From Chondrosia reniformis (lineage: Eukaryota > Porifera > Demospongiae > Chondrillida > Chondrillidae), in NCBI GenBank assembly GCA_947172415.1, contig OX359189.1, positions 1,014,501 to 1,078,500 of the forward strand: a stretch of DNA of 64,000 bases, given 5' to 3'. Positions 31,375 through 58,300 of the stretch are shown here, piece by piece (the first letter of the stretch is position 1; the number at the start of each line of letters is the position of its first letter). The translations under genes were made by a program, and so were the position numbers. The notes beneath the pieces are model-generated. The model was not told the DNA's origin. It searched no databases and worked only from the letters and a program-made list of their open reading frames with translations.

Positions 31375-34300
31375 CTGTATACAAGCCAAACAAAAATTTA
31401 ATAATTTTATATCAACACAAAATGGCTAAATTGAATACTTAGAATTAAGCTAATATACAATATATATTAAGCTGAAGGAATTAAAATCACTTAAAATTTG
31501 TGACTAATGCAAGACTGAAACGCATGGCCAGAACAATTCTTACTTCCAGTATCAAATGACTCTAGTGTACGTAGATTAAGTTCCCTTTGTCTCTCTCTAG
31601 TCTTCTTCTCCTGGTCCCTACAGATGGCATAAGAATAGAGACAAGTTTTAGAATAAGCAAGGTACGTATTTAAGACGTAGGTACAATATGTATATGTAAT
31701 ACATAGTCTTCCAGCATGACTTGTAGTCCTAAGTGGGTTTACCTGCCGAATATCAGACTGTTGGGATGGAATAGGACTCTGGTATATCAGTTTTCTTATT
31801 TTAGTGTCGTAACTTGCATACCATACCCACATATTTCTGGGACAAGGTCATGACATACAGGGGATCTTGCATCCAAACAATTTTCAAACCAACCTTTCTA
31901 GGGCATATATATATATATATAAAGTATGCTAACCTCAAGTGTCTTCTCCAACAGCAAGCACACATGATAATCAACAGAAAGAGTAGGAAAACAGCTGCCA
32001 CCACTATGATGACAATAATGGCCCAAAGTGGGAATGGCGTTGGAAGAGCAGGCAGTTCTCTGTTACTAATAACACTCTGAGGATACAAACAAACCCACAA
32101 GGTATTAATCACTGATATTCCTCAGAATACATGAAGTACATATATCATTGAATCTCATTAAGAGGATCTCTTAATGAGATTCAATGGTATACTTCACAAG
32201 TTCAGGAACTAAAGTTACTGTATGTACATAGGCATGCTAATTGCAGTACAGAAGGATAGTCCAATATTTAATAGTCACTAGGATCCAGTTCTAGAATTAC
32301 CTGAAAACAGTAAGAACCAAGGTATCTTCCTATATATGTCGACAGCTTAGCATATATGATGTCTGGATCCACAAACTCATTACTGTCACTGAGACCATAA
32401 AGTTCCACAGTTATTGTACTGAAATAGAAAAGAGAAGGATGCAGTTTACTTCCAGTTTTCCTTCAGGTTAATTTAAAAATAATAGTGTACATATATGTTA
32501 ACATATATATTTAATACTCTTGATAAATACAATATATTTCTCCAATTCAAAATTCATTGAAAAGGAATTATACAAACTTGACATACGTATTCTGTCATGA
32601 CTAAGCTAACCTATTGTCTAGTTGCTGAGTCCTAGCAATAAAGATGTCTACCATGACCTCACTCTCCAGCGAGGCTTCAAATCCTTCAATCTTTGCAAGG
32701 AATGCTTCTTGTGTGGTGTTACACAAAGTGATGGTGATGGTGTCAGTGAAGGCATAAAGGTCAACCACCACTGGACACCTTGTAGTAAGGCCCACATTCG
32801 TAGCTCCACCATCAGAGACTAAAACATCAAATTGCAGAGTAATGGCGCGCTGGGAGAGAGTTGTAGTGGTTGTAATGAGGCCACTTTCCCCATCTATTTG
32901 GAAGGACTGCCTGTCAACTTGTCTGCCATCAAGTGAATACCATAAATCTCTAAACGAGGCTGAAAGATCCAAATCTTGGGCAGTCAAAGTGAGCACTTCT
33001 GTGCCAACTTTAGCATTGGTTGCCAAGGAAACTTCTGTCCTATTTCCAGATGGGCATTTGGGAGGAATGTCATTAACATCTCTTACAGAAATGGTCAGCT
33101 AAATGATAGAAAGTGAAGAAATGTAAATAAGACATACGTAGTGTGCAATGCATCACATGCATGCGTATAACTACTCACTTCAAAGGTGTCAATGATGTAT
33201 AGGAAGTGATCTTTGCTTGGGACTTTTAGATTGCTGGCCACATTATCTCTATGGTTACGCTGAGCAAAATCTGTTGCTTCAAATGTTAGAGTATACATTT
33301 GATTGGACTCTGCATCTAATGGCTTTATAATACTAAGTTGACCTGTTTTGGAGTCAACTACAAAAATATCATCATAGTCACTGTTTATAATTCTGTACTC
33401 TACTTCCGCATTCAAAGGAGCATCTTCATCAATAGCTGAAAGTATATAACCAATAAAGCCTAAAGCTTGATCCTCATCCAAGTTAAAAGAATCGGTTTTG
33501 CTCAAAAAGATTGGTCTGTTGAGGTTTAATTCTACCTCAAAATTTACTGTAGTTGTTATGGCAATGTTGGAGCACATTTGCCAAGTAATAGTTAAAAGGT
33601 CTCCATTACCAATAGCTTGACCAGTAGCAATTCCATTTTGAACTGTTACTAGGGATTCATTGAGCGATGTAATTGTAAGGCTACTGGCATTGGTAATATA
33701 TACCCTTGTACTGTCATCCATTACTGCACTGACAATGATTGGAACAGCCGCACTCTCAAGGCCATATATGCCAGGGATAACGTCCAATAAGACTGGAGCA
33801 GGTTGCGTGTGAGGCAGAGCAACACTGGACTTCATTCTTAGAGTGGCAACTATTGGATCAAGGTAAAGGACCTCTCTTGATTGGCCGCCAACTTGGATGG
33901 TTATTGACTCCGAAAATCCATCAACAAAAATTTTTGACTGTCCGACAGATTTGCCAACTAAGGTTCCAGATTGTTGTATAACCTCAACAACATTTGGATC
34001 TTCAGATATTATCTACATATATATAAAGTAATTAAGTATAGTATCAGGAATAGAAGTCCTTAATTGACAGGTGATATACATTTATCTATACTAATAGGTA
34101 TAAATTATTATCATTATTGCCCACGTAATGTTTTTTGAAAATTTACAACTACGTACTATGACCATCCCCTGAATATGTACATTTATGTACAAGATAAACA
34201 TATCTATTGCTATGATACTTTTATACATGTACATAGGCTTACCTTATCAGAAACAAGATGGAATATATCCAATTCAATGACATCTTCAGTTCTCACGTTT

Positions 34301-37300
34301 CTGAAGCTAGCTGAGACATCAATGCTGACAGTCTCAAAAGTTATTTCTCCTGATTCATCACATATTTGGCCATCATATAAACTAATAACACCTAGGTTAT
34401 TGTGAGAGGTTGTTAAAGCTATGCCCTCAAAGTTCCACGTGAAGAATGGAAGGGGAGAGCCGTATACAGTTACTCCATTAATGCCAGCATTACATGTTAC
34501 CTGTACAAATCGATCATCCGTATCAACAAGTCTCAATACTTCGTTATCTAAAGAGAGTAGAAAGTGTACATCAGACAGTATGCATCATAACCTGAACGAA
34601 ATGTCAACCTAATTATTGTAATAGTTTTTTCCACTTAAAATTGAACAATATCTATAACACACATATATACGTATGTATTGTAATTGTGTGTCTAACGTAA
34701 TAAGACATATATTTTTAATAATATTGTAAAAAGGAGTTTGACTGTATGTATCATATAGTGTGCACATTAAATCTACTTCATGCATATACGTACATACGTA
34801 TGTATCAAAATACAAACCTATGATAATGGATGGAGAGTCTGATTCACAGTTAATACCAACTGAAGATAGGGAGTCCAGAGCATTGCCAACAGGTGCATTG
34901 ACTGATGCTGAAACAGAAAATGGCAGGGAGATTGTTACAACTCTTGCATCAATGACTGTTGTTGTTTCTTCGCCAGTAATAAGTTGCATATCCAGGAGAT
35001 CTGGCTTGGCTGATGACACAATATATAGCAGGGGATCCGTGGCAACACCATAAGGAGCCTAACAGTATGTATCATGTTGGACATATAAAGGTTTGAAACT
35101 ATACAAATTTAGCTAATTGTCTTCTTACTTACAGAAATAGATGTTTCTCCAAAGCCAGCAGAGGGACTGAAAAAGGTTTGTTGACTAGAACTACGTACAT
35201 ACATATGTGAGAATGTTGAAAGCACATATTATACAGTACATTTAACACTCAACAAGCTAGTATCGTATATACCTGGAGAAGGTAATTCTCATGTTTTTGA
35301 CAAGTTCACTAATTACTGGATCTTCCAGTCTTATTTTCACTATAGCCAATCGAATGAGATCATCAGATGGCACACTACTGACAATTTCACACTGGAGTTG
35401 GTCTGCAGTGGTAACTGAAAAACAAACAAACAAATACATAATATTACAACACAGACTTGTGGACAAAATGCAACTTACCACAACCAAATCCTGGACCACC
35501 TTTTACCTCTTCAAGTTCAATGCCTGAGGGGAGGCCCAGAGTTGTGCTATATCCTGAACTTGCAAGGTCTGAGGTGATATATAAGAATATGCTGACAACG
35601 GTGCCAGCATAGACGGGATGGTTTGGCCCGACTATATAGACCCCACTCCTCGGACTGAGATCATATTCGTCAAATGAGGTGCTGGCCTCCACTTCCACTT
35701 CTTCTGTGCTACCATCACTGTTAAGAGGTGACAAAGACACCTTGTCAGCAAGATTCGTGACCTTCTCAAACCAGACATTAGGAAGAGGACCAAGATATAC
35801 TAAGCAGGCAGAAGTAGTAGCTGCTGTTAAGCAGGAACCTGTCACATTCTGGTATGGTTCAAGGGATGCCGATGGTGTAAGCATAACTGTGAGTTCAGAA
35901 GCAGCAACTAAGGGTATTCCCCTATTATCGTAGCCTAGCAACAGGACTGGCAGGAATCTCAAATCATGATAGACTTTTTCTATCAATGGAACAATTTGGA
36001 TTGTCTTGAGTTGATCACCGGTTGACTGAATTGCAATTTCTGGTTGAGGGGAGGGCTGGTCAATGTCATCTTCAAGAGGTACCACAAACATTTGACTGGA
36101 GACTGTCAGACTGCTTCCAATATCAGTAGTGAAGGGATAACTGAATTCATGGGCATAGGTGATTGGCGACAATCTGCCCAGTGAATTAACAGGGAAATCC
36201 CCAAAGTATCTTATGAATTTACCTTCAATGACATGTATAGAAATTGTGGCAGTGTTAGTCCTCGGCACCAAACCCTTGTCGGAGACAGATATATCAATTG
36301 TTGTGACACCAGAAATGCTCAAGAGGCTCTTCTTCACATACACTTCACCAGACTGTGAATCTATGTCAAAGAAGTCGGATGTAACCAGGAGTGAATATTG
36401 TACTTCTCCACCTGCGCCAAGGTCTCTGTCTTCTGCAATTACTTGTGTTATCACAGTGCCAAGAGGTAGATCTCTTTCAGTGTAAACTAGAGTTTCAAGT
36501 ATAATAAATTGTGGCATCTCGTCATTCAAATCCAGCACGTTAACCAGTATGGTAACATAAGATGTTGTCGGACGATCACTTTTGTCAAACGCTTCAGCCA
36601 CAAGTACGTACTGAGGATTCAATTCTCTGTCTACCTCAGAATTTACTGTCAGTGTACCATCAGGAAGAATATCAAAAGGTGTGGAATCATTGACAAGACC
36701 ATAAATCAGATCGCCTGCAGGACCATCATCAGGATCAGTTGCATTGAGCTGGATACCTGGAACTATAGTATCAGCAGCATACATACCTTCAGTGATGTTG
36801 ACAAAGTATGTGTCACGATCAAATACAGCAGGCCGGTCATTAATATCCATTATCCTGATCTTGAAGGGGATCTCTGAGTAGAGATTACCAATGTCAGTTG
36901 CTCTTATTTTCAAATCATAACTGACTGTTGTTTCAAAATCCAGAAAATTGTTGACATAGATGTATCCATTCTTTGGATCAATCCACCACACTTTTCCAAT
37001 GTTGCCATCATAAATAGAGAGGATATATTCAGAGTTTTCACCAGTATCGTCATCAATCACTTCAAATCCTTCACTGAAAACCAGTGTACCATTTTCCACA
37101 TCCTCAGGTACTTCCATAATCAACTCTGTAGCTGGATTGACAAATCTTGGTGGATTATCATTAACATCTTCAACTGTTACATATACTTGCTTGACCCCAA
37201 TAGTGGTACCAGCTAACATCACAGTGACATCAAAATCATGGCTATCGTCAACCTCCCTGTCTAATGTAAGTGCTGACAGTGTTCTTGAGCTACCAGTACC

Positions 37301-40300
37301 TAGGAAATAGAATCGGTCATTACTAGACACAAAGGTGAAGGTTCCTGAGAGAGATGGGAAGAAAGGATCAATCGGAGAGAGTGTTGCAATACCGTGGGGA
37401 GGTTCTTCCTCAGTAACAGCAAGGTTTAGTATTTCAGAACTGAACAAGCACAAGTCTGAACGTTGTGTGTTATCAAATTGAGTCAAATTTGCTGTTGCCA
37501 AAACTAAGTTTTCCAACTCCACTCTACTGTCACGAGAGGAGGAGATGGAGCCAAACTGTAGAGTTGCAGGTCCAGCCTTAGTGAAGATAGTATATCCATT
37601 GTCATCTATTTCACCATTACTACTAGAGGTTAGTACTATTACTGAAGTAAGCTGGATTGATGTTTCACGGAATGCTGTATAGAATGAAACTTTGTACTGT
37701 TCTCCATTCGTATCTGGGACAGGCCATGCTTCAAATATGTAATTATTGCTGTCCAGACTCCTCACAAAACTACCAGATGTTAAACTGGAGAGATCTAGAA
37801 GAGAAGCAATGGATGGATGTGAGAGCTGAAAAAACACAAAAGTAGTCTCGCTTGGAATGAAGCCTTGCGTTGTTCCATCCACCAAATCCACGGTAACATC
37901 AAGTGTGCAAGACTGTGTATTGCTCTGGATATTATCTCCACTATACAGTACCACTAATGGAGTTAAGCCTCCACGTGCTCTTACCATATAATCAACATCT
38001 AAGAGGTCAACTATGCCATCTATGTTGGGATCAACACTCCTTGATGGTTGTAGCACTTCCTGCCAGAGGTTTAGCGGGTCTTGAACATCAAATGAACCAT
38101 CCTCATTATAGTCACCAGCTTGAATGGACAGCCTTCTCTGTTTGGTAGAATAGTGGGGGGCTTCTACTTCTCTTTTCTTCCTGCTATCTTCTTCAATCAC
38201 TTCAATAGTAATTTCATGACTTGATGTGAAGTCTGAATTTGTGCTATCAATTATACTGGTTTCCATAGAGATGCCAGTGATGCCAGGTTGCAGTGCAGTA
38301 AATCTGATGCTGGCAAATGTGATGGTACCAGTGCTCTGCTGTCTCCCTATACCACTGACATGTACCACTCCATCCACAGGATTGCTAGCAACATACATGC
38401 CATCAAGGGTGACAGAGATATCTGCGACAGAAAGAACGAGAGGATTGAACAAGATTGTGGCTTCTAGTGCCAAGATATTGTTAGGCCCTCCATTGACTCT
38501 AAACTGGACATCAGTGCTTCCTCCGGTGGGGATTGGTGCCACTGCGGGGCCAGATGGAAATCCAGCATCTACACCTCCGACTGTCTTATCATTCTCTGGA
38601 TTGGCAGCAAACACGTAACTTGCTGTAATGCTAGAGGAGTACTTAGCTACTACTTCTAGTGTGGCCTCGGGAGTGTATCTCAAAATATTTAGAACATTTC
38701 CTGTGATTTCTGCCACTTCAGGTGGAATAACAGTAAAGTTCAAAGCTCCCATTAATCCATCACCACTTTCTCCTGTACTGTATACTGTGTCACCATCATA
38801 AAGAAGAGCTCCTGTGATTGCATATAGAGTTTCTGTGCTAGACTGAAGTGGAGTAAGATTGATAAGAATCTCGTCAAAGTCTAAACTCTGAGCATGGGGT
38901 GCATAAACAGTGATACTGATGGTAGATGTCAGCCTACTGCTTATAATACCTCTCAGCTGGGTTGTTCCTGGTATTCTAGCACTAACACGTACTCTATCCT
39001 CACTCTCCATCAGAGTTACTACAGTTGTATCTACACTTGGTGCAAAGGCAACCATATCATTGTCAGGTGGGTAGTAATATGCAATGCTGTCATCTGAAAG
39101 TGAAATTTGGAACAGAACTTCAGTGACCTGATACAGGTTATCGGTACCAGAAACTGCTCTAAATTCAGTCAATGAATCCATTTCATCACTGCCAATTGGT
39201 ATGAGTTTGACTTCAAGGGAGAGGGGTTCCACCACCCAGACAAATTGATTGGCTAGGTAGACGTGGTCCTGATAGTCATAAATTGCTATCAACTCATCTC
39301 TTCCCACATTTAGCAGAGAAGGCACAAGAATAGTAGCATCATCAGTGGGTTCAAGAAGGCCGTACAAGCTGTATATTTGTACATCAGATGTTACATCAAG
39401 AGGAGTAGATCCATCTGAGAATCTTAAAGTAACAGTCAGATCTAATGATGAGGGGATGATATTTTCAGGTAAATTGTGCGATGGATGGGTGACTCTTGGA
39501 GATGACAAAGTAATTACCAAGTCAGAAACTACTGCTGTTTCTACAAATACAAAGGCCAGACTTTGAGGTGGATTGGTTATGCAAGATGGTGCAAAGGTTG
39601 CATTAAGCAGATTGCCACTGATTCCAGATAGGATTTCTACCCTGTTGTTTTCAATAAGAAGAGCATCAGTGTCCAAAGACGTAACATTGAGGTTACTTTC
39701 CCTTGACACATACAGACTATGTTCATCATCAAAGATAATTAATCCAAACACCTCTCCAGTGTTCTTCTCCCGGGTGAAATATTGAGTCAGTGTCACACTT
39801 GCCTTTGAGCTAGGTGTTACTAGCTGTGAATCGGGAAGGGTTCCCAGTATGCTAAACTCTGTAAATAATGTGGTCACTGTGGCAACCACTTGCACTCTCT
39901 CCAGACTAAGAGTTACAACTCTATTGGCCCATTCAAATCCATCTACCACAACACTAGTACTTGTGGAGGCACTGTGATCAGCACTGGCATAAACATGGCC
40001 GTCTGCATCAAGTGTCAGGATTGAGGTATCAAGAACTCTTATCTTTCCATAATATAGGAGTAAATCAGTCAAATCCAGGATGGGTGTTTCCATGGTTCCA
40101 GAAACAAAAGTTCCTTGAACATAGATTCTAGCTTTCTGAAAGTAGTCAGAACTACAATCAGGGCCTTGCTTCCATTCGCTGATTCTCTCAAGGACTTCAT
40201 CACTGGCAATCACCTTCAAGGCAGTAGAATCTGGTCCTACTGCTGTCAAATCGGTGACAAACTTGGGCTGCCATATGCGGATAGGAAGAATGAACGAAAA

Positions 40301-43300
40301 GGATTGGTACTGCACTACAACTCCCATACGCATTCTATCCTGAGTATGTTGGTCAGTCAAGGTCATTTGAGAGCAGTCTGGCTCTATTCTAATGGCTGTA
40401 CTGTCACTGCATGTTAAGGAGTTGGTTACTGGACGCATTCTACTGCTGTCCATCGTGTTATACAAGCCATAGACTGTAATTGATGAAGTGACATCAGCAT
40501 TTGTAAGAATAGCAGTATTGGCCATTTCACTGGAATTTGTTGAGGCAAAAATACCAATCATTTCCACATCCATTGAATACAGTCGTCCACTGCCAACTGA
40601 TAGACCTCTTCTATCTACAAATAACCCAGCAACTGGATCATTAAGAATAAATGGACCTTTTACAGTCTGTAGGATTGATACTAAAGATGAAAAGAGGGTA
40701 AAACCACTGCTATGATGAGATGTCACTCGATATCTGATGCCAAATATAGATTGCCTCTGTGTATTTTCTGGTGTGTCTGCCTTGCTCTGCAGAAGACAGG
40801 CTAATGAGAGGATTTCAGAGTTTGTGCCAGCAGAAAGCTCCTGTTGACACATCCACGCTCCTGTATCCTCCAGCTCTATGAACCTTACTTCACTATTAAT
40901 AGATGTTATGGTCATTTGGAAGGCGTTTACTGTGTAAGGAGCTGATGCTGTTAGTACGACAGTAAATTCTTGGCCAACCACTACTGGATGATTAGGTATG
41001 GTAGATACTATATTGTAGTCAGTGACTGCAATTGTTGCTTCATTATCTGAATTGATGGTAACCAATGAACCAATGACAGTGGATCCGGAACCAGAGCCCC
41101 AAGTTATTGATACTCTAACACTGCCATCTGATTCAAACCATTCTTCTGGCAAATCAATGCTCATCCAACATATTCCATTGAAATAGTCATTCTGACAGAT
41201 ATCATCAGAAGTAATTGTGGAAGACCCCAGTAGTTCAACCTGTAAAATGACTCCACTTCCATCAACTGCTACAGTGCTCAGTGAGCGGTCCCTTAGCTGC
41301 AATGCAACCATCAAAGCATTGTCACTCTTCCAGTAAGCAGTTTTCTGAAGGTAGCCATTCACTTCAAACACTGGTTGAGGAGGTTTAGAAAAAATTGCAG
41401 TCTTCTTCAAGCCACCAATATCAGCCGTCATTTCAACTGGATCTCCTAAATCTCCTATAAAGACAACATCTTGTGTGACACCAGAGAAATCATAAGTGGA
41501 ACGTAGTCTTTCTTGTCCAGCAACTAAGAAACCAGGTCCTTTAATGTGAAGGTCAAAAGGTTGGATTTCTACAACTGTGATGTTAACAGTGAGAGTACAG
41601 AATAGCCCACTAGAAATACTGGTGGCACTGATGGGCAGCGAAATCTGGTCATTGTTGTAAGAATGGACATTTGTAGTCAATGTGAATGCATTAGGTGCTA
41701 TTTTAACCAAGTTAAACATCTCTCTAATGTTTCTTTCCATCAGTATAGTAAATTCCATGTCTCTGTGATCAATGAATAAATCATCATCCTTGATAGTCAC
41801 ACTGATGATTTCATCACCAATAGGAGCACCTCTAAAAAGAACAGCAGCATAAGCTTCGGGATCACAAAGAGGAGCAAACTCATCAACTGGATCCACAAAG
41901 ATTGTAACTCTAGCAGAACTACTCAAAGAAGGTGTACCACCATCCCTAGCAACAACAGCGAAAGGAATTTCAAATATTTTCTCATAATCTACTGGTTTTT
42001 CAAGGATAACTACTCCATTTCTGTCAATAGTAAAGTAATCAGCTGGTCCTTCTATATCAAAAGCAAGTTGTCCATTTTCATTAGCATCCAAGTCATAGAC
42101 ACTGAGGGAGAGAACAGAAGTACCCGTGGGCTGATCTTCTTTAACTCTTCCTACAAAGTTGTTAGAACTGAATGTCGGTTTGTTGTCATTTATATCATCA
42201 ATGATGACCCTTATTGTTACAGTTCCAGTTTTTTCTGCTATTCCACCATCTACTGCTATGACATTGAACTCTATTTCTGATCCATATTCTCCTTCACGAT
42301 CTAGAGGATTGATTAAAGTGACTATACCATTTACTTCATCAATTGCAAAGAATTCCTTCACAACATCAAGTTCAAAAGAGTATTGCTCCACGGCTCCACC
42401 TCTGCCAGTATCGTTATCTCTTGCTGTTAAATTGAGTTTGAAAGATGCATCTAAAGTTTCCTCAATTAAATAAATTTCTATGTAAGATGGATCAAACACA
42501 GGAGGCGAATTATTGATGCAGTCGCTGGTAGACAAATCAGAAAAGATATTAAGGAATGGGTTAAATCCTAGTGGAAGTGTAACCCCCTCTGATCCTTGGT
42601 TGCTTGGTAACACAGAGAGAGTTGTAGCCTCTGGGAAACGTTGAGGGATAGCATCATCTCCAAATAAGGAAAGTGTTCCCCATTCTCCTGAAATAATGAG
42701 GAATGAAACTCCCATTTGACCTACTGTTAAGGCTGAATTCAATTGAGTCACAAACATTCCACTTCCACTGTGGCTCAAAACCACTCCTCCAAAAGATATA
42801 CCTTCCGATATACTTCCACTGACTATAGTCTTTCTACCAGCTAGATCATGTATCACTGACTCATCAAACTGCTCCTGGAACAATGCATCTTGATGGCTCA
42901 AAAGCATCACCGAGGTTACATCACTGTCTGCCACAGGTCTTTGTCCCCTGTATGCCAACTCCAATCCAACCGCAAGGTAGCAGTCACTCAGAGCTACACC
43001 ACTGGAGCTGCTGGAAACAACTAATGGGAATCTGAAGAATGCCGCATCAAGGTAGTAAAGGAAGTCCTTCTGGTTGCAAGGGGAAGCTTGGCTCATGTCT
43101 GATTCCCTGTCACACATGCCTAGTACATCTAAAACATCAAATACACAGTCGTTATTGAAGTCTCCTAGCTCCTTTCCATCAACACAGAAGCACAGAGAGA
43201 AAGGAGTACACCTCCTCTTGGTGGGAATGAAGGTGGACAGTCTTACATAAGGAATATTAGAAACTTCAAGCATAGTGCCAGATCCTTCAATAATTACTCC

Positions 43301-46300
43301 AATAGCCTCCACAGGATAATCATCTTCTGTTGATACCAGCTGTCCCCTAGAATTCCCCATCACCATCACTTGAGCTGCTATGACAGCTGGAGAAGTGGTG
43401 GTTGTCTGGGTGGCCTTGAATGTAACCATAGCAACCTCAGTAAGTCCGCTAAAGGTTCTACCACTAATGCCACCAAGCAGAACAGAACCTATATACTTGT
43501 GGCCACTGTGTCTGAAGTACTCCCCCGTCCAATCACTTCCCTCCTCCACCGATGAGAGAGTCAAATAATCACTGTCAAAAGCTAGAACAATCTCAACTGC
43601 ACTGATTTCATTCTCCCCAAAATTAACTCTAACTGGTACTGAAAATGTCTCATCTACTGCCTTGGGTGAAATGGGCACATCTTCTAATGAACCCAAATCA
43701 ACAGCACCTTCGTCAGTTGGGAAAAGGTTGACTACAAAAGAGGTCGAGTCAAATCCATTTGAGGTACCGTCATCAAAGATTGCTGTGAGCTTTATAGAGT
43801 CAGCTACATTTCCAAGCACAGATATCTCCCCTGAAGTATTGCTCACTTTCAATGCATTATCAACTGGAACTTGCAGGGTAACAAAATCCAGGTAAACAGC
43901 TCTCGCAGTCTTGTAAAAGTCACATACTTCGGTCCCATCATTGAATTTCCAATCTAGTACGACTCTTTCATTTGATGAATTTGGTGACTTGGAGAAGCCA
44001 ATAGATGCTTCTTCAACCCAAACAGGGCTGTCAAATACAGTTAAATCAAAGGTGTAGAATATTGAACCAACCGTTGCAGTAAGAGATGTCTGACCTTCTA
44101 AGAAAGTAGTGACGCTGCCGTTCTCCTCAATGTTAGCAACAGAGTCATTAGAGCTTGCAAACCTGGCTTCATTAGTTATGGTCTGATAGCTCACTATTCC
44201 CAAAGCATCCTGGAACTTCCAAAGCACTTGCAAGTTAGCTGGTTGGTAGTAACCAGTGTTTCTGACTTGGTGAATCTCTGAGAGAGCTGCATCTTCTTCA
44301 CCAGGACAAACAGGGAAGGGTCTTAGGTTAACTTCAATTTCAAGCAAACTTACCAGTACCTTAATTTGACCTGTGGCCTGGACATCCAGGCCTTTGAATG
44401 AGGCTGTTAGAATAATATCAACTGGATCAGTAACATTAGGTGGAACTTCCACCAAATACATTCCATTGCTGTAAGAAATATCTAGCACTGGTGGATCACT
44501 GTTAAGAGAAAGGAACTGACTTTCAGTAACATCTAGTGGCATCTCTTCATCATATTTCAGGTAAACTTGTATCAAAGTTGATGATGGCAGCCCAATGCTA
44601 TATTTCAAGGAATAGTCATTCTGTGGTACTAACACCTCAGTGAAGTCACCAAAGTACAAAGTACGAGTTGCAGGAGCTAGTGGTACTGGAACCTTTTCAT
44701 TTGAAATGGTACCACTGCACGATGTAGACCAAGTGGCATTAAGTGGGTAATTGTTGGGAATTCCTACTAGAGACACTGTAGATGCATTCAGAAGTACAGA
44801 GTCATCAAGTCTGGTGTAGGATAAACCTTCCTTCTCAGTTAGGAGGGAAATACAGCCATCATCTGTGACCATAAATGTCTTCAAAATTCCTTCATCACCA
44901 ATTCCAGTGAGCTGAGGGTTGATAGAAGCAGTAAGGTCTGTTGCTTCTGGAGAAACATTTCCATCCATTGGGGTCAAAGTCAAACCAGAAGAAAGATAGG
45001 AAACTAACCCTAAAACATTAACTTTGTCAGCAAGGGTCACTCTAACCGAAATAGTAACAGAGTCAAACCGAGGATGGATAAATGATATACTAGCATCACC
45101 CTGACTTATTCCTGCAACTCTCAGACCATCTAAGGAAATGAATCCTGGATTGTTATTACGAAGCCTGTCCATAACCAGGTTGTTGACAAGGATTGTGGAT
45201 TGAAGAGATGGCTGTGCTGTTATAGTAGCTCTTGCATGGATGTTAGTCCACTGGTAAGTAGGAACACAACTTATGATACCTCTCATTGAAACACCTTCTA
45301 TGGCACTCAATGTATCATCTTCAATAGATATACTTACACTTGATAGTGGATACCAGACTGTAAATACAAAGCTTTCATTACCAATTGCAACACCTTGCCT
45401 GTTGTTTTCAACATTAATGTAAGCTTCACTTGCTCCACTGGTTTCTGTGCCATCCACTAACACTCCCTTACATCCATCCTGGATTTTCAGAATGTCTGTG
45501 TTCAAACTTGTACAGGTGAGGGAATCACCGTCAGCAACCTGGATGACCGATGGATTACCTGTCCAGGCTCCGCTGATGGTGAAATCTAACTGTACTGGGC
45601 TCCCGGTGAAAGGAACTATATTGACCAAACTCCTAAAACCAGTGGACAAGAAGGTCTTTTTTAACTCTGGAGATAGTAGCCAAATGCAGCCAATGGATTC
45701 TTGAAGTAGGTTTCTGTCATTTAGGGTCACATTAAAGTCAGAATCATTCCTAAGATAAGGAGAAGACCTCACCGCAAGGTGACCTGTACATCTGATTTGA
45801 ATGGATGATGGTGGATTCTCAAGACTACGGACAGTGAATGGAACACTCATCTTTGCAGTCGAATCAGAAGCAGCATTCATCTGTCTGCTAGCGGTGATGT
45901 AGACACCGTCATTAGCCACGCTGCTGGCTGCCTCCCACCCATCATTCACGTCCTCCAGTACACCAGAGCCAAACTGGATCCAATTCTCGTTGCACTGGCA
46001 GAAGATTGTAAAAGTAGTGATGGGATTTTCTTCTTCTTTGGTGGATATGGTTATTGTAGACATGTCTCCAGGATAGTGGTTTCTCTCAGGTAGTTCGATA
46101 AAAATGGAGGTTAGTATGGAGCTGGAATTGACTGGAGATGGTATAATCATTCTTACCTCATACATTTCAGTCAAAACACCAGTTGTTATGGTAACAGCAA
46201 CAGTGTGAATGCCAGGAGTTCTCCAATCATCCAAAACTGGTATTGTGAGAATTGTAAGAGGGCTTTCACTAGAAATGGTAGTTTCTGTTTGTGTTGGAAT

Positions 46301-49300
46301 CCCAAATAGAGAAGCTACTGCCACAACTGTTGTATCTAAAATGAGGGTGCCTCTCCATCTATTCAGGCCTTGAATAGCTATTTCAATTGCATCATCTTCT
46401 AGTCTGATTTCAGGAGTAAGAAGTGATGTTATCAAGAATTCTGTTTGTTGTGGTTCAACTGAGAATTGGGCAGTTTCTGTGTTGGTATCAAAGCTGGTTG
46501 TAAAGCTGTAGTTTGATAAAGGCAAAGAAGTATAAAAGTGGCCAAATGACTGAGAGAAGGTGACTCCAGTGGGTGAGGACTGTGGTCCCTCTAGGGGATA
46601 TCCGAGAGAGGTCTCAAAGTCAACCACATCCACTGAGCCAATTACGACTACAAGTTCTCCTGTGCTCATTCTGATTGGTGAACTTATAGCACCATCCCTC
46701 ACTTGAAGGGAGTAGATAAAGGTGGTTTTCACAGAATCTGTGATGATTCTACGAGTTGTAACTATGCCATTGCTGTCTATACTAACAGGCCCATCAGAAG
46801 GTCCAGACAAAACTGTAAAAGTTAGTGTATGAGAACATAGGTCACCATCAGATGCTTGTAATGTCATAATGTATTCATCTCTGGCTGTACTGGGAGGTAC
46901 TATTGCAATGAACCGTGAGCGATCAAATAGAGGTGGATATAGATTTTCATCAGAAACCCGAACAGTCACTATTTTAGTTGTTGTCAAATTATCAGGCCTT
47001 CCAGGTCGATCCACGGCCTCCACTATTACCTGATGGGTTAATTCACCCGGGGTAGGGTTGATACATAGGCTCCCAGCAACAGAAAGTACACCAGTTTCTT
47101 CATTAATTTCAAACACATCCATTTCGCTTCGTAGAAAATAACGAAGTGTTTCATTGTCTCCCAGATCTTCATCAATAGTTCTTACAGTAAGTAAAGATGT
47201 ACCTGGAGGAGTGTTCTCTGAAATCGCCTCATTATAATCGCCCAAAAACTGAGGAGGGTTGTCGTTAATATCATCCACAAACACAATCACTCTAGCACTG
47301 GATGTAAGTCCCAGTGAGTCAGTAGCTCTTATGGAAAAGATGTAGAAAGGAACTTCTTCTCTATTCAGTGGAGTTTGGAGAAGTAAAGCAATTCTTGAAT
47401 CAGAAGGATGAGCAGTAACCCTAAAGGTTCCATCTCCATCCAAGATGTCAGCTGTAAACATTCCTCCTAAACCAGTATCTGGATCATGTACTTCAAAGGA
47501 GTAAATAGGAACAGTTAGTGAAGTAGAAGTGTTTTCTAGAATGCTCAATTCATATGTGTCGTTAGAGAAAATTGGTGCCAAATCATTCACATCTGTGACC
47601 ATCACAATGACAGAGGTGGTTCCAGTCTGTGCTGGCTTTCCTCCATCTACTGCTATTACTTTGATGTTATGCATTTGGTGACGCTCAAAGTCTAGTCTAT
47701 CGCTAATTGTTATGACACCAGTTTCCTCATCAATCACAAATGGACCTCCATCTGTGTCTACTATTGTGTATCGGGAAATCACACCGTTTTCATTTTCTGA
47801 TGGATTGTCGTCTCTGCAATATGAGCCACGATCATCATCTTCAGCCATGACCGTTTGCACAGTTGTACCAGGACTTGCGTTCTCACTGAGAGTACTTGTG
47901 GTGGTCGGGCTGAAATACGGCTGATTGTCATTCTCCTCGCAAACACTGATGATGACTGTTTGAACAACATCTGGTTGACCAGACTGGCGTGCCACAAAAT
48001 GAGCTCTGAACACTCCAGTTAGGTTTACAATTGACTGAACAAGTTCACGATCTAATTCCCTTTTGAGTGAAAGATTTCTAGTTAGTGGATCAAAGTTAAA
48101 GAAAACATTCTTAAGATTAGATTCAAAGAAGGCTGTTCCAGAAGGAAGGGCTGAGAAAGCAAAGTCGAATATCACCTCCACTTTAGCTGCTTCTCCTTCA
48201 TCTAAATCTGTGACCACAAAGGTATGAAAGGGAACAAAAGGAGGGATTGACTCTGAAATGAATATTTGTTCATTATCTTCAAATCTGTTGAAATATTTAA
48301 ACACTGGCGGGTTGTCATTTACATCTAAAACAGTCACAATTACTGTAAATATTGAGCTCAAAGGTTTAGGCACCATGACAACATTTTCAACAAGTACTGT
48401 GAGGTTGAATTCTGGCACTTCCTCTCTGTCAAGTGGTCGCAACAAAATAAGTTCAGCAGCTGTGCTATTGATGGACATAAAAGTAAAATATGTAGAATTT
48501 TCATCATCACCATCAATTATGGTGTAGGTAGAGTTCTGAAAGTCAATATTAATATCTTCATCATTTGAGTTTACTATAAAACCAGTGCCTCCAATGTCTG
48601 GCCCCTCTTCTCGATAGAAGTTGTAAACTGGTGTTTCAGGGATGGGGGAGCCATCGTTGACATCAGTGATCTCCACAAAATAGCCAATAGTGTTGCTTCT
48701 TCTGAGTTGCTCATAAGGGGCTTGATCTGTTGCCTGTAGCACCATGTCTACCCTTACAAAACTTTCATAGTCAAGGGATCGGAGAAGGATGATCTTACCA
48801 GTGTTTTCATCAATATCAAATAGGCCGTCCTCTGAAGAGCTGACAATGGAATACTTTATCTCACCAGATGGACCAATATCCTGATCATTTGCCCTGACAC
48901 TGACAAAGATATCGTTGTCTACAGGAATATCTTCGGATATACGCTGACTATAAGGCCCCAAAATGACCCATTCAGGAGTGTAATTGTTGAAACAGTTTAT
49001 GGATGGATAGAGAACATCAAACTCTATCCAGGCATTAAATCCCACTGAGACAAAGATATCCGCTGATGCAAGTGTAGCATTCAGAGATCCATGTTTAGCA
49101 GAGGTAGAAAATGGTCCAGTTATGAAGGCTACATGTTCCTGTGAAGCTATGAGGATGGCAAGGGAGATGTTTTCCCCATTCAGATTTCCTGGGGCTGTCT
49201 TGATAGCGTATTCACCATAGCCAAAGTACTCTGCCTCCCACCAACCACCTGAAGCATTGCGAGGCAGCTCAGCAGTTACCAGTGCACCTGTGTCCAATCC

Positions 49301-52300
49301 ATTATCATCAAATCCTGTTTGGAAGTCTGGATCCAAATGGAATACACCAAAGAAAACTTGAGTTGAACTGACATTGTAGAATTGGGAAAGAGTAATATTG
49401 ACTGTTGCCGGGCAACTATTCTCAGCCACAACATTCACAAGACTGTAACTGACTAAAATGGGAATCTGATTGAAGCTTGATCTTTCAAGAATCCTCACAT
49501 CCCTTAAATCATTGACAGTGTTCAAATCTGCATCAATAGCAGCAACTTGTGGTTTGGTGTTATTAACTGAACAGAGGATGTCAGGGTCAGTAAGGAATCT
49601 CCTAGCACAGAAAGCATCTTGCAAATCAAATTTACAGTCATTATTAACATCTCCTGGTATGTTGTCACTGCAGTTAATGTTTGTTGGTATTTTAGCTGGG
49701 GCTGGATAGTAACCATTAGTGCCCAAACCATCAGAAAATTCTATGCTAGCTGCAGCACTATTCTGCAAAGATGGAGAGAAGCCTAATGGAGCATTTCTCA
49801 CTTCCAATAGCTCATTAACAAAGTCAACTGCATAGGTAGCTCCAGTGAGCAGTAGCTTGAACTCAACTGTTCCCAGATACAAGCGTTCATTTCCAATAGT
49901 TTCTTCTGTGATAATCCACCCAATACTCAGAATACCTTCCTCAGCGTTGTCGGTCCAGTAGTTATGTCCAGAGAAGCTCACATTATCAGTTTCTACTGTC
50001 AGAATCTCCATGGCACTGGAGTTGTATAGGACACTAAAAACACAACTCATCACCTCCAGGTTGTCAGCATTCAAGTAAACGGGCAATTTAATTATGTCAG
50101 TAAAAACTTCAGCTGGTAAGCCTGTTTCGTTGCCAACATCCAAATCCCCCAAGACAGGCTGAAGGTTAGCATAGAATGAGATATTGTCACTCACAGGGTC
50201 CCTCCTTATCACAATTCTAACCAATTCAGTTACATTGACCAATACAAATCCATTCTCCTCCATCTCCTCTTTAGTCATGTTCACACTGCCAATATCTGTC
50301 CCATTGATTGTGGCATTGTCATATACAGTCATATTGTCCATGCTACCATCCACTGTCACCATCACTGTTCTTGTTACATTTTCATATCTGATCATTACAG
50401 GATACAACAAAACCAACTCCAACTCCACAGCCTCTCTTGAGTTTCCCTGAAGTACAAAACTGCTGTTAATGTTACTTTTGTCAATAATACCAACAGCAGA
50501 AGAGGAGGCTGCCCATGTATAATTGACTGCAGTTAGCAATTCCAATGTAGACATGGCATCAAGGAGGATGTTTCCATCCGACAACGCAGCGGACACAGTC
50601 TCCAAGGTAGTTGGAGTCCCCAAAATACCAGAAAAAGTATCGTTGTCAATATTTTCAAATTCGAGAAGGATCAAATCTGTGACATACAGTAACTCATCAG
50701 AAACAGTTAAATTAAATTCAGCTTGGAAGCTATTGTAGCTGGCAAGTAGAGTTACTGATCCAGATTGGAGAGGTATAATGATAATTATATCTGATCCACC
50801 AGTATCCACTGAAAGATCAAAGGAGGTATTGGAAGCAATTTCCACAAAAGTTCCTGAAACATTATTACCATCAGAAAGTAGAGCTCTGGCTACTAGACTA
50901 ACTGACTGGTAAGTTGGGGTAGATGTACCAGCAAATCTCCTCAGAGTTGCCACTTCTCCGTGCATGTATTCTGGATACAATTGCATTGTGAGCTCCAGGT
51001 CAACAACTCTAACAATCTGAAGTACAAGTGAGGTTGTAAAGTTCCAATCCGAATGTTCATATGTAGCAGAGACCACTACATTCCCAGGAGAAGCATTATC
51101 AGGTACCATAATTAGAGAATTTGACACAACTGTCAATTGACTAGAGTTACTGGTAGAGATGGAAACATAGGAGTACATTGTGACATCCCTGATAGTGTTA
51201 CCATCAACAACCAGGAGTATTTGGATGGTTGCCGTCCTTTGTAGTCCAGTCAAAGTAGTGTCTTCATCAGTGGTCAGGACAAGGGTGGAGGAGTTTAATT
51301 CAACACGTAGAGGTGATGCAAGATTGTCTGTGTTAACGTACCAGCTGTTTCGTATGTTTTCCTCCACACAGGTGTCTCCATCCCATTCCACTTGAAGTGC
51401 TCGACTGCTGCTCCTTCTGTATACAGTTATGTGACTTTTATCATCCACCCTTACAGTATCAGCATCTAAAGATGTCAATTCTATTTCTGCCTCATCTATT
51501 CTCAAAGCACTACTATCAGTCATTAGTATTTCACTATAGACATATCCCTGTTGATAGGCTCGGGAGAATCCGGTAGCGAGATCCAAGTATAAGGTAGTGG
51601 TGTGACTCATGCCTGCAAATCCACCATCTAAGTCATCTCTGGCGTATCCTTCAGGTATGATTGTAAGGTGGAGATCAGAAAGGTAAACTTTGTCATCTGT
51701 AACACCTACTGAAGGTGAATAAACTACCCCTCCACCAGTTAGATCCAATCGTACAAATGTGAAGCCAGTTGATTTTCCAATGACATATGGCAATTCTTGG
51801 CTAGTATCTAGGACAGCTATATCTTCATCAATGATGTACAGAAGGTCCTTTACTAGGTGGGTTATATCTGCTGATCTGTGTTCAAAACGAAGTCTGAAAT
51901 TGGACTCAGCAAACACAGCTGTTTCCTGATAGCGAAGATCTGAACAGTTCTCAATCTTGTTCAAAGTGCTGTCTGCAAATCTTATAGTGGTTGAAATTGG
52001 GAACCAGACATTTATGTACACTTCAAACTCTCTTACAGATCCTGGAATAGCAGCCAGGAGGATGGCACGTTCCTCACTTCTCTCTTCTGTGCCATTCAAA
52101 TATGCAAAATTGCAGTCACTCTTGACATTGAGGACAGTTTGATCTCTGCTAAAGCAATAGGCCCCTTTGTAGTCATAGTCTATCGAACCACTTTTATATA
52201 TGGCAAACAAAGTTAATTCACTTTGAACAGGTTCTCCATTCAGTCTTGCAGTGTTCAGAAGGGTGCCACTTCTGCTGTGCCCAATCAATTCATTTGGTTC

Positions 52301-55300
52301 ATCCCTAGCAACATAGATATAACCTGTATCACCAAATCTCATCCTGCCTACGTTGATTGGAGGACTGGAGGCCCAGAGAACCCCCAAGTTGACGTCAGCC
52401 AAGTAATCAATGAAGCAGTAGACAGGAAGCTCGACTTCAGACTGATTTGAAAGTTGTCCCATCCAATCAGATCTCAGGGTAAGAGTAAGGAAGGAAGCAC
52501 TGGGCAACGGCATTGCATTGCTGGTAGACGAATCTGTGTATGTTATGCTGAGTGTGCCGTTGTTAAGGGAAGTATACACAACACTATCGCTAGATGATGA
52601 CTTGTAGTCCTCATACACGATATCAGTAGGAAGGTCACACTTTGCAGCAAAATATCCGATCCTATAGTCCCATGTTGTGGAGAAGTCAATAGTGAATGTT
52701 TGCCCTCTGTAGACTGGACTGGATGGATAGGTTGCTATGAGAGAGCCTGTTGTTTCCATGGCAATGGGCTTTGGTTGCAAAGTTAGTATAATTGGAGTAA
52801 TCACGTTGTCAACTGTTGACATTCCTGGATCCTCAATACCATATCCTCCAGACACTCTCTGTACACTATCCTGAAACCACTGGCTGGGCAGAGAAACAGA
52901 CATGGTACAAGCTGAGTTTAAGGATGATGTTGTGCAAGTTTCTCTGACAGCTTCACCTGTGCCATTTAGCTGAAAGGTAACAAAAACAGTGGTCTCCTCG
53001 ATATTCTCCACTTGATTACCATCTCCAAACACTTGCAGTAAGAGTTTTACATCTGGCTTGTCATAGAAGATTACTTCATCTGAAACTGCAGCCTTAACAT
53101 AAGCAGCTGGAGCCTGCTCTGACTGAATGGTGTACGTAGCAATGTCTTCTCCTCTTACCTGTAGACTGACTTCAGTTGAAGTGGATGCAGGCACTCCATT
53201 GGGGAACCATACGTCCTGCCTGTAGAAGGTCTGAGATGAGCGGACCAGTGGAGGAACTGCAAATCCCCCAGGAACAGATACTTGTATGGGTAATATGCTT
53301 CCAACTGTGATGTAAGCATTTATGATATCAAACCTCACTGGCTGCCTGAAATGACCAGAATCTGAGACTTTAATGTTTAGCAGGTAGTCGAAGATATTTG
53401 GTTCTGTGATGTCCCTCAGCAAGACAATTTCTCCATTCCTTGAGTTAATTCTAAAAACTTCATCTTCATTTCCATAGAGGATTTCATAATAAAATCTTTC
53501 AGTACAATAATCATCGTCCAACACAGGAAGAGAGGCGAATACAACAGTTCCTGCCGGACTATCTGAATTCAGTCTGGCCACATGGGAAGGCGCCAAAAAC
53601 ATGGGAGTGTAGAGGTTGACATCTTGAACTGCTATAGTAATAGTTGTCTGGTCTTTTAATGATGAATCATATACATTGTAAGCTTCAACCACAATTGTGT
53701 GAAAGACGTGTTCTGTACTGTTGATGCATAGTGGACTGGAAACTACAATGTATCCATCATCAGTCACATTAAAAGCATCACTTCCGCTTACAAAGACATA
53801 CTTTGTGATGGCATTGTCACCCTCATCTGAGTCCTCCGCACTTACTTGGAAGAGTGGAGTTCCTGGTGGAGTATTTTCTGTAATGCTTTCATAATACTCT
53901 GTCTCCAGGAAGGACGGAGGGGAGTCATTCTCATCTAAAATCTCAATCAAGACAACAACTGTGTCATTTAAGCCATCGGAATCAGCTGCTTCAACTGCTA
54001 CAGTTATGAAAGGGGTTTCCTCTCTATCAATAAGTACCATTTCGGATGTTCGTATTTCTCCTGTTTGAGAATTGATTGTGAATCTGTCAGGATCTGAGGG
54101 GTCAACCAGCGTGTATGTGAGTACATCATTGTCTGGGTCCGACGCCTGTACTATTGCTACTCTCATATCTCTAGCATTTTCTACAACCCGAGCATGTAGG
54201 AAGCCTCCTGGTGATACGCCAAAAGATGGAGCACTATCAAACACATCAACCACAACTATTGTGATGTTAAGTGTATCAGACATGGGTGGGACCCCTGAAT
54301 CTGTGACTTCAACAATTATGATATATGTAGCTCTGTCTTCCCTATCAAGAGGAGGAATGGAGGTGACTCTACCAGTGATCCTGTTGATTTTAAACTGTTC
54401 ACTATCTCCACCCACTATGGAATAGATAAGCTGGCTGTTGTTTCCAGAATCTCTGTCCATGGCAACCACATTTGTCACAAAAACAGGGACATCCTCGTTC
54501 TCTTGGACTTGCACAACACCAGGTGGTGTAATCACTGGTTTATTATCATTAACATCCAATAGTTCTATGGTCAGGATAGCACTGATCTGAAGTCCATTAT
54601 CAGAGGGTAGGGAAGGTCCCCTCCTATCCCTGACAGTTATGTTAAGCCGATACCGTCTTAGACCATCTTCATAATCAAATCCTTCTTTTGAGACAAAGAC
54701 CTGCCCAGTTGACTGGTTGACGTAAAACATCCCGTAAGGATCTTCCAAGCTATACTCCAGAAAGGCATTATGACCCACATCAAAGTCGGTGGCATTGACA
54801 TCATATACAAATTCACCTACAGTAGCATTCTCTAACAGATAAGTTGTGGCTGGGAGATTAGTAAACACTGGGTGTTCATTAGAATCAATCACATTTACAA
54901 CTACTTCACCAAATGTGGTAAAGAGGCCATCTGTCACAGAGACATTCAACGTGTAAGTCCTCAGTCCCAAGTGGTAATCAAATTGTTGAATGAGATACAC
55001 CTCGCCATTGTTTGTGATTCTAAATGTGTCATTAAAGGTATCACCATCTTCATTTGGCACAATTGAGTAAACAAGTTGATTGTTTGGGTAAACATCATCA
55101 TCAAATGCTTGCACTATGAAGATTGGCCCATCCAGCAAAGATACCAACTCTGTGATATTTCTAATTAAGGGATCATACTCAAAATATGGCATCTCGTCAT
55201 TTTCATCTTCAATCTTTATATAGACTGTTGTCGTACTAGTACGCTTTGGTACTGTGTCATCAACTGCTATTACTTGAAAGGTGTAGGTAGAATTCATTTC

Positions 55301-58300
55301 TCTGTCTATATCACCTGCTACAGTGATAGTACCATCCTCTGGATCGAGTGAAAATGGAATGCTAGAGTCATAATTTGGTGCAAAGTAGTAGTTAACCTCT
55401 TGATCATCATCTTCATCTGTGGCAAGAATGCTCACAACGTATGTTCCATTGGCAGAATTCTCACTCACGATTCCATTAAACAGATCTGGGGAACTGAACT
55501 CAGGATCATTCAGATTTGGTGATACCACGGTGATGTAGAACCCAGCTGATGTGTTCCTTGACTGTGGAATTCCAGCATCACTTACATGGACAATTAAGAA
55601 GCAGTTGTAAATGTCTGTAATCGTACGATTCAGATCAGCAGTTATGTTGAAGTTTCCAGTGTAAGGGTCCAACCTAGCCAAATCAAAACACTCATCAGGG
55701 TACAAATATGTAACACTGTACATCAAAGTGCTGTTGACACCAAAGTCACGATCTTCTGCTACTATACTAAAGCCAACTTCACCAATGGGCAAATTTTCTG
55801 GAACTTTGAAGCTTGACTCTGTGACAAAGATGGGAGAATTGTCATTTTCATCTGTAATATTTACTGTTAGCTTGACAGAAGAATTCAAATTCTGTGGCCC
55901 ATCATCTGTTGCTATCACATAAATGGAAATGGTCTCGGTTTCTTCTCTGTCTACACGTTGAGCTAAAGTAATCTCACCGGTGGTAGAGTTTATACTAAAT
56001 GGTTGGTAACCATCATCAACTAGAGGTTGTAGTTCATAAGAAATTGTACCGTTTTCACTCAAATCAGCATCAAAGGCATAGACTGTAAATACATACGAGT
56101 TAAGGCCATCACCTTCATAGAAAGTAGCTTCATAAGTGAAATTTCCTTCTTCTGTGTCATTCCCAGTGACTTTAACAAAGACTGGACTGTTGTCATTTAT
56201 GTCAAGAAGATCTATTCTTAAGAAGGCACACCCTACAGCTCCTGTACTGCCAGTGGCTAGAAGAGTTAGATGATAGAAAGGAACAGATTCTCTGTCTAAT
56301 GGTCCAGACACATTAACCTCTCCCGTGAAGTTGTCAATTATGAATGGAATATTTGTCTGTAGGAAGGAGTAAGTGGTTCCATCGTCCCACCACTGAGAAT
56401 AATCAAATTCTGAATCTGGTGAGTTGTCATTATTGTCTGACATATTCCCTTGGGCGGACATGTTGAAGCTGGCTTCAATATCTCTGGCAAAGACTGTCAG
56501 CAGGTATGTCCCAGATTCAGCGTCTTCAGGAACAGACACATTATAGTTGTACTGTTCGAACTGTGGTCCATCGTTTGCATCATAGGTTGTTATGACAAGA
56601 ACAATTTCATCAGTGTACAGGCCATCTGATACTTGAACTGTTATGAAAAATATTGGTACCATTTCAAAGTCTAATTTCCGAGAGATTCTCAACTGTCCTG
56701 TACTTGTGTTAACTTCAACAAAGGTAATGCTGCTAGAGTCCTCTGTAATGGTGTATCTGAGGCTGTTCTGACTAACCTCATCAACATCTGACACATTCAG
56801 ACTAAAATCCCAAATAATAGATCCAAGGGGCATGCTCTCAGAGAGGTACAACTCATAAAGTGTGTCATTGTCTTTATCAAAATTTGGAGGATTATCATTC
56901 ACGTCAGCAACACTCAGGATGACATCTGCAATAGTAAAGATGTTTGGTTCATCTGGGTCCTCAGCAACAATCATAAATTCATATGTTCTCTCGTTAGTCT
57001 CGTAATCAAAGATCTCAAAAAGATTCAGAGTGCCATTTTCTTCGTCAAGGTAGATAAAATCTAGTACTGGATCGTCAACCTCTGAACTATTTCCTGTGTT
57101 ATTGCTTTGAGGTGAAGTGTCACTGGTTGAATTCTCAGAAAAGACAAGTCTAAATTGAACCTTTCTGTTTGCAAGAATGTCATTGCCATGGGAGACACTA
57201 AAGGAATATGTCCACATTGTAGTGTTTTCCAGAACAGAGAGATTATAAGCAGTTTGGTTGAGAGTTGGAGGATCATTAACATCAGCAATTCTAATAGTAA
57301 GGTTTGCGTTGGCTTGGCGATTTGGAGAGACATATTCTGTTGACTGCACAAAGAACATAAATTCTGGAATGTCTTCAGTGAGTCGATCTGGCAGGAAGTT
57401 CACAGTGACTACTCCAGTTTCATTGTGAATGGAGAAGTAGGTAGTGTTCTCTGGGTCTACCGCAGTCATAGTATAGGTGACAGTACCATTGCTGCCTTCA
57501 TCAGGATCTATCCCATACAGAATGGTTGCTTCAGAGCCATTGAGAGTGTACTCAGGCACATCAACTACATACTGGGTGGAATTGAAGTTAGGCCCATTAT
57601 CATTCAAATCAAGAATTCGAATTTCTACTGGTACGGTAGAATTTTGAAATCCATCACTGGCTTGCATGGTAAGATAGTAATATTGTATTTCCTCACGGTC
57701 AAGTGGTTTGACATTGACTATAAGTCCTGTTCTACCATTCAGTGCCAGTTCAAAAGTTTCATCAATATTTCCACCAATAATCTCATACAAGATATCCCTT
57801 GAGCCATCAGGATCAGAGGCTGTTACTATGCCAACAATAATATCTGTTTGCTGTGTCTCTGTGATATTAAAGAAGTATGCATCAAGGTCAAATTGTGGGT
57901 TCTCATCATCAAAATTGTCAATAGTGATGACCACATCAACAGAAGAGAAGGTTACAAAACTATCAAAGCTGGCCTGAACCTTAAAAACATACTTGACAAC
58001 CATGTTGCTATTTTCTCTATCCAATGTCATGGTGGTAGTTATGTTACCACTGTTTGAATCAATTTCAAATGGAATGGTCTCATTGGCCACAATCCTATAG
58101 CTCAACAAGGAGCTGTTTTCGCCTGTTGCTCTTACGATTCCAACAAGTGTACCATTAGGTTCGCCCTCAGTGACAGAAAACTTCAAAGGGTCAGCTTCAA
58201 ATCCAGGAAGAGTATCAACACGGTTTACAATTCGTACAGTAACCTCTGCTGGAGAAGAAGCGAGACCACTTAAATCTTCTGCATAAACGATGAAGGAGAA

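Follow-up and report, generated by a model that had tools for sequence, protein, structure and literature searches.

Cohesin and dockerin domains adjoin in the repeated TMEM132-like blocks of a giant sponge cadherin: a candidate intramolecular clasp

Background

A 64,000-nucleotide stretch of the genome of the sponge Chondrosia reniformis (C1:1014501-1078500; the whole of it is called the window here) holds, on its minus strand, a giant cadherin gene that encodes a predicted cell-surface protein of ~10,000 amino acids and in which TMEM132-like blocks recur. What are these blocks, how is each of them closed, and what might the closing domains do? We found that every complete block continues, after its TMEM132 part, into a second cohesin, which a linker joins to a dockerin, with another beta domain at the end. 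Sequence comparison demonstrates the block order, the cohesin and the dockerin; it also shows the complete unit in two further genes of the genome and in three outside proteins. We hypothesize, with a probability of about one half, that this is a giant single-pass cadherin in which the TMEM132-like block occurs four times (the fourth truncated) and in which three blocks end in a calcium-dependent clasp, the cohesin of a block probably binding the dockerin that follows it in the chain.

One cadherin group relevant to this gene, the coherins, was reportedly named by Nichols et al. in 2012. The fusion of TMEM132 domains to cadherins, which an earlier sequence-only reading of this DNA had taken for something not known, was already published by Sanchez-Pulido and Ponting in 2017: lefftyrins, coherins and hedglings have all five TMEM132 domains with their order preserved, as a repeated constituent of ancient cadherins (PMC6030884). 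Coherins of choanoflagellates and sponges are described as having acquired bacterial cohesin domains, an idea that PMC8164589 credits to King and colleagues. The literature searched, partly available as incomplete texts and including PMC11573180, PMC5097364 and PMC8164589, holds no report of the present arrangement of cohesin, furin motif and dockerin, and an earlier mention of a dockerin may stand in Nichols et al. 2012 or in the 2017 supplement.

Results

The genome searched comprises 117,379,552 bases in 15 contigs. The gene is outlined by the following features:

31934..64000, minus strand: giant cadherin gene, extending past the upstream end of the window, with an exon at 64226-63928 and a signal-peptide-like exon near 66099
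35447..60394, minus strand: single open frame of 8316 amino acids that takes in modules 1-3 and the first part of module 4
31934..32076, minus strand: exon with a single transmembrane helix (hydrophobic run, translation judged by eye)

A hand-spliced model from 64226 to 31934 has 13 exons and 9872 amino acids, without the first exon and the cytoplasmic tail; its splice sites were picked by hand from consensus scores, and its exons are predictions. Around the modules lie at least 38 cadherin stretches by Pfam (30 + 6 + 2 in three scans). Both coherin-type features are present in the gene, with cadherin matches at expectation values (E) down to 1.6e-229 and a cohesin match at 6.1e-6, above the cut-off. 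The last cadherin repeat and the pre-membrane stretch (window 33098-32301) resemble CELSR1 (E 3.5e-12), protocadherin-19 and cadherin-23 among solved structures.

Within this one giant cadherin the block is repeated four times, as the sequence-only reading had proposed, with the fourth copy truncated:

50165..53302 (open-frame residues 2365-3410), minus strand: TMEM132-like core of module 1 (Ig_TMEM132_4th 8.5e-16, 5th 0.011, 2nd 0.046)
43730..46639, minus strand: TMEM132-like core of module 2 (Ig_TMEM132_4th 3.1e-10; Big_2 8.8e-4)
38609..41572, minus strand: TMEM132-like core of module 3 (Ig_TMEM132_4th 2.8e-12, TMEM132_3rd 0.0014)
33521..36232, minus strand: module 4, a truncated TMEM132-like block in five exons, without the cohesin-dockerin end (Ig_TMEM132_5th 0.010; own profile)

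The earlier positions of modules 1-3 agree to about 30 bases with the stretches 53302-50159, 46639-43724 and 41572-38603. The complete modules continue ~1.2 kb further, to 48983, 42509 and 37430. The supposed relationship to TMEM132 is borne out by profile search, in which Ig_TMEM132_4th (PF16070) matches all three complete modules above the curated cut-off of 27 bits (58.1, 40.3 and 46.9 for modules 1, 2 and 3); by Pfam it is not above that cut-off in module 4, where our own unit profile is clear over positions 459-668 only (E 8.7e-20, six-protein search). The matches to the 2nd, 3rd and 5th domains (0.046, 0.0014, 0.011, 0.010) are all below the curated Pfam cut-offs. Module 1 has the 2nd, 4th and 5th domains in the expected order, and the cohesin-like 3rd is matched in module 3 instead. 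With the threshold relaxed to E 10, matches across six units of the genome number five for the 4th domain, four for the 5th (3.2e-6 in the best unit), two for the 2nd and one for the 3rd. The sixth domain, PF23487, has no match in the genome searched exon by exon, nor in any of 14 control genomes. Further Ig-like stretches follow the TMEM132 part (by eye; Big_2 8.8e-4 in module 2), and against solved structures the profile of the core finds no relative (best 0.24).

Several of the sequence motifs from which the likeness was originally read are present as exact strings or as variants. As exact strings, LNTARL (52258), DITHLV (51868) and DDKV (51697) are confined to module 1, which also has VWFP at 52009, and ANTAIL (40522) is confined to module 3. 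In the alignment the remaining modules show variants of these strings. Chance motif matches as the source of the TMEM132 likeness are rejected by the Pfam profile scores.

New relative to the sequence-only reading are the furin motifs, the truncated state of module 4 and the cohesin, dockerin and closing domain at the end of every complete module. The ends of modules 1-3 contain:

49715..50164 (ends approximate), minus strand: second, canonical cohesin of module 1 (PF00963 5.3e-4, below cut-off; family profile matches solved cohesins)
49445..49663, minus strand: dockerin of module 1 with two calcium-type loops (DVNNDCKFDLQD, DADLNTVNDLRD), without furin motif (alignments; family profile against solved dockerins)
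48983..49444, minus strand: beta domain after the dockerin of module 1, with conserved cysteines near both ends (alignments; modelled strands in the unit of a relative)
43265..43729 (ends approximate), minus strand: canonical cohesin of module 2 (PF00963 2e-6, above curated cut-off)
42995..43177, minus strand: dockerin of module 2, first loop DFNNDCVFDVLD, second loop degenerate, without furin motif (alignments)
38189..38608 (ends approximate), minus strand: canonical cohesin of module 3 (alignments; family profile)
38171..38182, minus strand: RKKR, a motif of furin type in the cohesin-dockerin linker of module 3 (motif scan, alignment)
37943..38125, minus strand: dockerin of module 3 with two canonical loops (DYNEDGSFDVQD, DPNIDGIVDLLD) (alignments; Dockerin_1 alone E 0.092)

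No Pfam cohesin match of its own was obtained for the module 3 cohesin. Six ends were aligned, three from the window, two from a lefftyrin-like gene (one hand-joined over an intron) and one from a cadherin-free gene. Searched against all solved structures, their profile has a cellulosomal cohesin as its top match (2e-5, positions 21-124), followed by a dockerin-bearing chain (2.7e-5, positions 172-236). The same dockerin-bearing chain is the best match (1.4e-8) of a profile built from 12 of the 15 units, drawn from the window and the outside proteins; in Pfam at E up to 1, 10 of these 12 match cohesin (best 3.9e-8) and five match Dockerin_1 (best 1.5e-7). Sequence comparison thus establishes the identity of both domains at the family level. 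The cohesin is supported both by profile and by the fold match of a predicted model; no dockerin is among the 50 matches listed in the fold comparison, all of which fall to the cohesin. A first model, of the module 3 end from a three-row alignment, had a predicted local distance difference test score (pLDDT) of 33.9 and was uninformative. In the six-unit alignment, identity to the first row is 17-22% and nine columns are invariant, five of them dockerin aspartates. Cohesin and dockerin adjoin in all 15 aligned units, the dockerin lying some tens of residues beyond the second cohesin.

Glycine is usual in the first calcium loop of a dockerin. At that place 13 of the 15 units have a cysteine, often with more cysteines just before it, which suggests a disulphide; we know of no such example in bacterial dockerins.

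Ig_TMEM132_4th occurs at two further places in the genome. One is a gene on chromosome 1 (C1:555697-522897) with an open frame of 8974 amino acids, cadherins and two units, a tyrosine phosphatase downstream (1.5e-29) and laminin-like N-terminal exons (by eye). We call it lefftyrin-like; lefftyrin combines cadherins, TMEM132 units, a tyrosine phosphatase and a laminin-like N-terminus. The other, on chromosome 14 (C14:6021882-6031184), has an open frame of 3101 amino acids in which one complete unit is accompanied by Ser/Thr-rich stalks and, by eye, a transmembrane helix; this mucin-like protein has no cadherin Pfam match and no cadherin linker motif, and it is possibly the closest to a stand-alone TMEM132 in C. 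reniformis. A search of the genome with the cohesin-dockerin end returned six places, which are the six known units, although a lone dockerin might escape this query.

Among 5.8 billion proteins searched with module 1 inside the whole frame, three of 589 scored candidates match, namely P0001 (1.4e-105), P0002 and P0003; two other alignment searches of the large protein set gave none among 7997 and none among 7993 scored candidates at E 0.01. Precomputed domains include TMEM132_4th and cadherin in all three, cohesin in P0001 and P0002, Dockerin_1 in P0001 and P0003, and PF23487 in P0003. Core and end profiles find three units in each protein, and in 9 of 9 units the limit of the core and the beginning of the cohesin-dockerin end differ by no more than two residues; P0002 and P0003 start within their first core. 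P0001 aligns co-linearly with the window gene across 8418 columns (27% identity) and also begins a fourth block. In a tree, module 1 pairs with unit 1 of P0001 (98/99), module 3 with unit 3 (98/99) and module 2 with unit 2 (84/78), with the caveats that long branches meet in the module 2 and module 3 joins and that the cadherin-free unit is unplaced. Because of this pairing and co-linearity, the threefold arrangement likely predates the split of the two source species. An independent capture of the TMEM132 domain, which the sequence-only reading had entertained, is disfavoured by the recurrence of the full, larger unit in three genes of the genome and in three proteins from elsewhere.

Six proteins (41,964 residues in total) contain 20 copies of the strict furin motif RX[KR]R, of which 18 lie within 60 residues before a dockerin. 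For 14 units and 840 linker residues (the hand-joined lefftyrin unit, which has no motif, is left out of the protein count), whole-protein shuffles predict 2.0 linker motifs (maximum 8 in 200 shuffles) and linker shuffles 1.06 (maximum 5 in 2000). A binomial figure of 5e-29 overstates this clustering because the units are related. Ten of 15 units carry the motif, eight of them paired and two single; the two motifs outside linkers lie in a cadherin repeat of the window gene and in the closing beta domain of the third P0003 unit. In the window the only linker motif is the RKKR of module 3, and unit 3 of P0001 has RRRR and RSRR at the same place; modules 1 and 2 lack the motif, as do their P0001 partners. 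The linker has a pLDDT below 50 in the P0003 model. P_proprotein domains occur at four places in the genome. In the 10 motif-bearing units the stretch from cohesin start to motif is free of cysteine, which disfavours a disulphide across the furin cut, core cysteines aside.

Window 1-30453 is a long array of a 169-bp satellite, with 40 copies in the first 6.7 kb and later blocks separated by 1053-base spacers; about 0.5 kb lies between its end and the place where the cadherin gene presumably has its 3' end. An open frame for a glycosyl hydrolase of family 5 (L001:2444-4162; Cellulase, PF00150, E 5.4e-13), the only Pfam family there at E 0.01, lies shortly before the upstream end of the window on the same strand, and so adjoins a gene with cohesins and dockerins.

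Discussion

We propose that the linker would be cut during secretion by furin or a related convertase, much as in Notch S1 processing, and that the halves would stay joined through cohesin and dockerin, since no cysteine stands between cohesin start and motif in the motif-bearing units. Given the dockerin loops, this binding would be calcium-dependent. Such a joint could resist or sense pulling between cells and would let go on removal of calcium or at high force. In module 3 the clasp would span the predicted furin cut, and in modules 1 and 2, which have no motif, the pair may close an uncut loop that stores hidden length. The clasp would account for a predicted cut site set precisely between domains that are binding partners in other settings, and for a pair that is never found apart in the material searched.

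Several observations weigh against the clasp. Contact in cis is our inference, and binding, cleavage and expression are all predicted. The case for the dockerin depends on the family profile. Taken alone, neither the module 1 nor the module 2 dockerin has a Pfam match, and the module 3 dockerin reaches Dockerin_1 weakly, at E 0.092; Dockerin_1 is found in one of the six C. reniformis ends, at 0.21, and a Dockerin_1 search of the genome gave no match at 0.001. The second calcium loop of the module 2 dockerin is degenerate. With the furin motif missing from modules 1 and 2, most units of the window gene would stay uncut, and the second lefftyrin unit has RQTR in place of a strict motif while both of its tree partners carry one. 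Module 1 has a cysteine in its cohesin, and cysteines of the TMEM132 core may yet be disulphide partners across a cut.

A serious rival, in our view a somewhat unlikely one, is that each cohesin binds the dockerin of a molecule on a neighbouring cell, the units being adhesive sites freed by the furin cut. The proteins are indeed cadherins with a transmembrane helix, bacterial cohesins bind the dockerins of other proteins (PMC6030884), and multiple units per molecule would presumably give avidity; yet the adjacency of cohesin and dockerin in 15 of 15 units should favour binding in cis through local concentration, and a cut between the pair would free the distal part unless binding in cis retains it. 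In a quite improbable explanation, furin cuts release the distal cadherin ectodomain into the matrix and cohesin and dockerin are non-binding structural remains. The strict motifs, paired in eight units and single in two, agree with such shedding, as does the one dockerin with a degenerate second loop, but a relic would be expected to decay, whereas dockerin loop residues are conserved at 17-22% identity and supply five of the nine invariant columns.

It is also conceivable, if unlikely, that this is one more ordinary gene of the published family, with no special role for its dockerin and basic linker. The TMEM132 domains of coherins, lefftyrins and hedglings are already on record (PMC6030884), as is the crediting of coherin cohesins to King and colleagues (PMC8164589). 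Against this stand the clustering of the furin motifs far beyond what linker composition gives and the way in which motif presence in the window gene follows that in the partner units from P0001.

A working clasp would mean that cohesin and dockerin served early animal adhesion as a releasable joint; bacterial cohesin-dockerin pairs have rupture forces among the highest reported. A broader and more tentative hypothesis, with the odds leaning against it, is that sponge cadherins are non-covalent chains, cut by furin in their TMEM132 blocks and re-joined by a built-in pair of cohesin and dockerin, drawn from the toolkit that also serves the bacterial cellulosome and acting between cells as a calcium-gated mechanical fuse, and that the TMEM132 of other animals would descend from this latch block in shortened form, minus the second cohesin and the dockerin. 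The TMEM132 family is linked to hearing loss and panic disorder, and with a working clasp its origin would become testable with two small recombinant domains.

Comparison with known systems

The window gene shares with coherins, lefftyrins and hedglings of sponges and choanoflagellates, as cited in PMC6030884, the combination of cadherin repeats, cohesin and the five-domain TMEM132 order; compared by description, its dockerin, linker furin motifs and closing beta domain go unmentioned in the available text of that paper. The published TMEM132 architecture has one block and one cohesin (PMC6030884), and the window gene differs from it. To the TMEM132 proteins of animals (PF16070, PF23039, PF23481, PF23486) the modules are alike in the 4th domain; the 2nd, 3rd and 5th match more weakly, in order but spread over separate modules and below the Pfam cut-offs.

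In Notch, a furin-type site in the ectodomain (S1) is cut and the halves are held non-covalently. The proposed clasp resembles this heterodimer in its ectodomain furin-type site and non-covalent hold; cleavage of the sponge protein is only predicted, its domains are others, and the cohesin-dockerin pair would do the holding. With the pairs of the bacterial cellulosome (PF00963, PF00404) the sponge unit shares both domains by profile, and the cohesin also by fold. Its dockerins differ from the cellulosomal ones in the cysteine that replaces the usual glycine of the first loop in 13 of 15 units. The sponge unit further differs in having both partners in one animal-type membrane protein, with furin motifs in the linker between them in 10 of 15 units.

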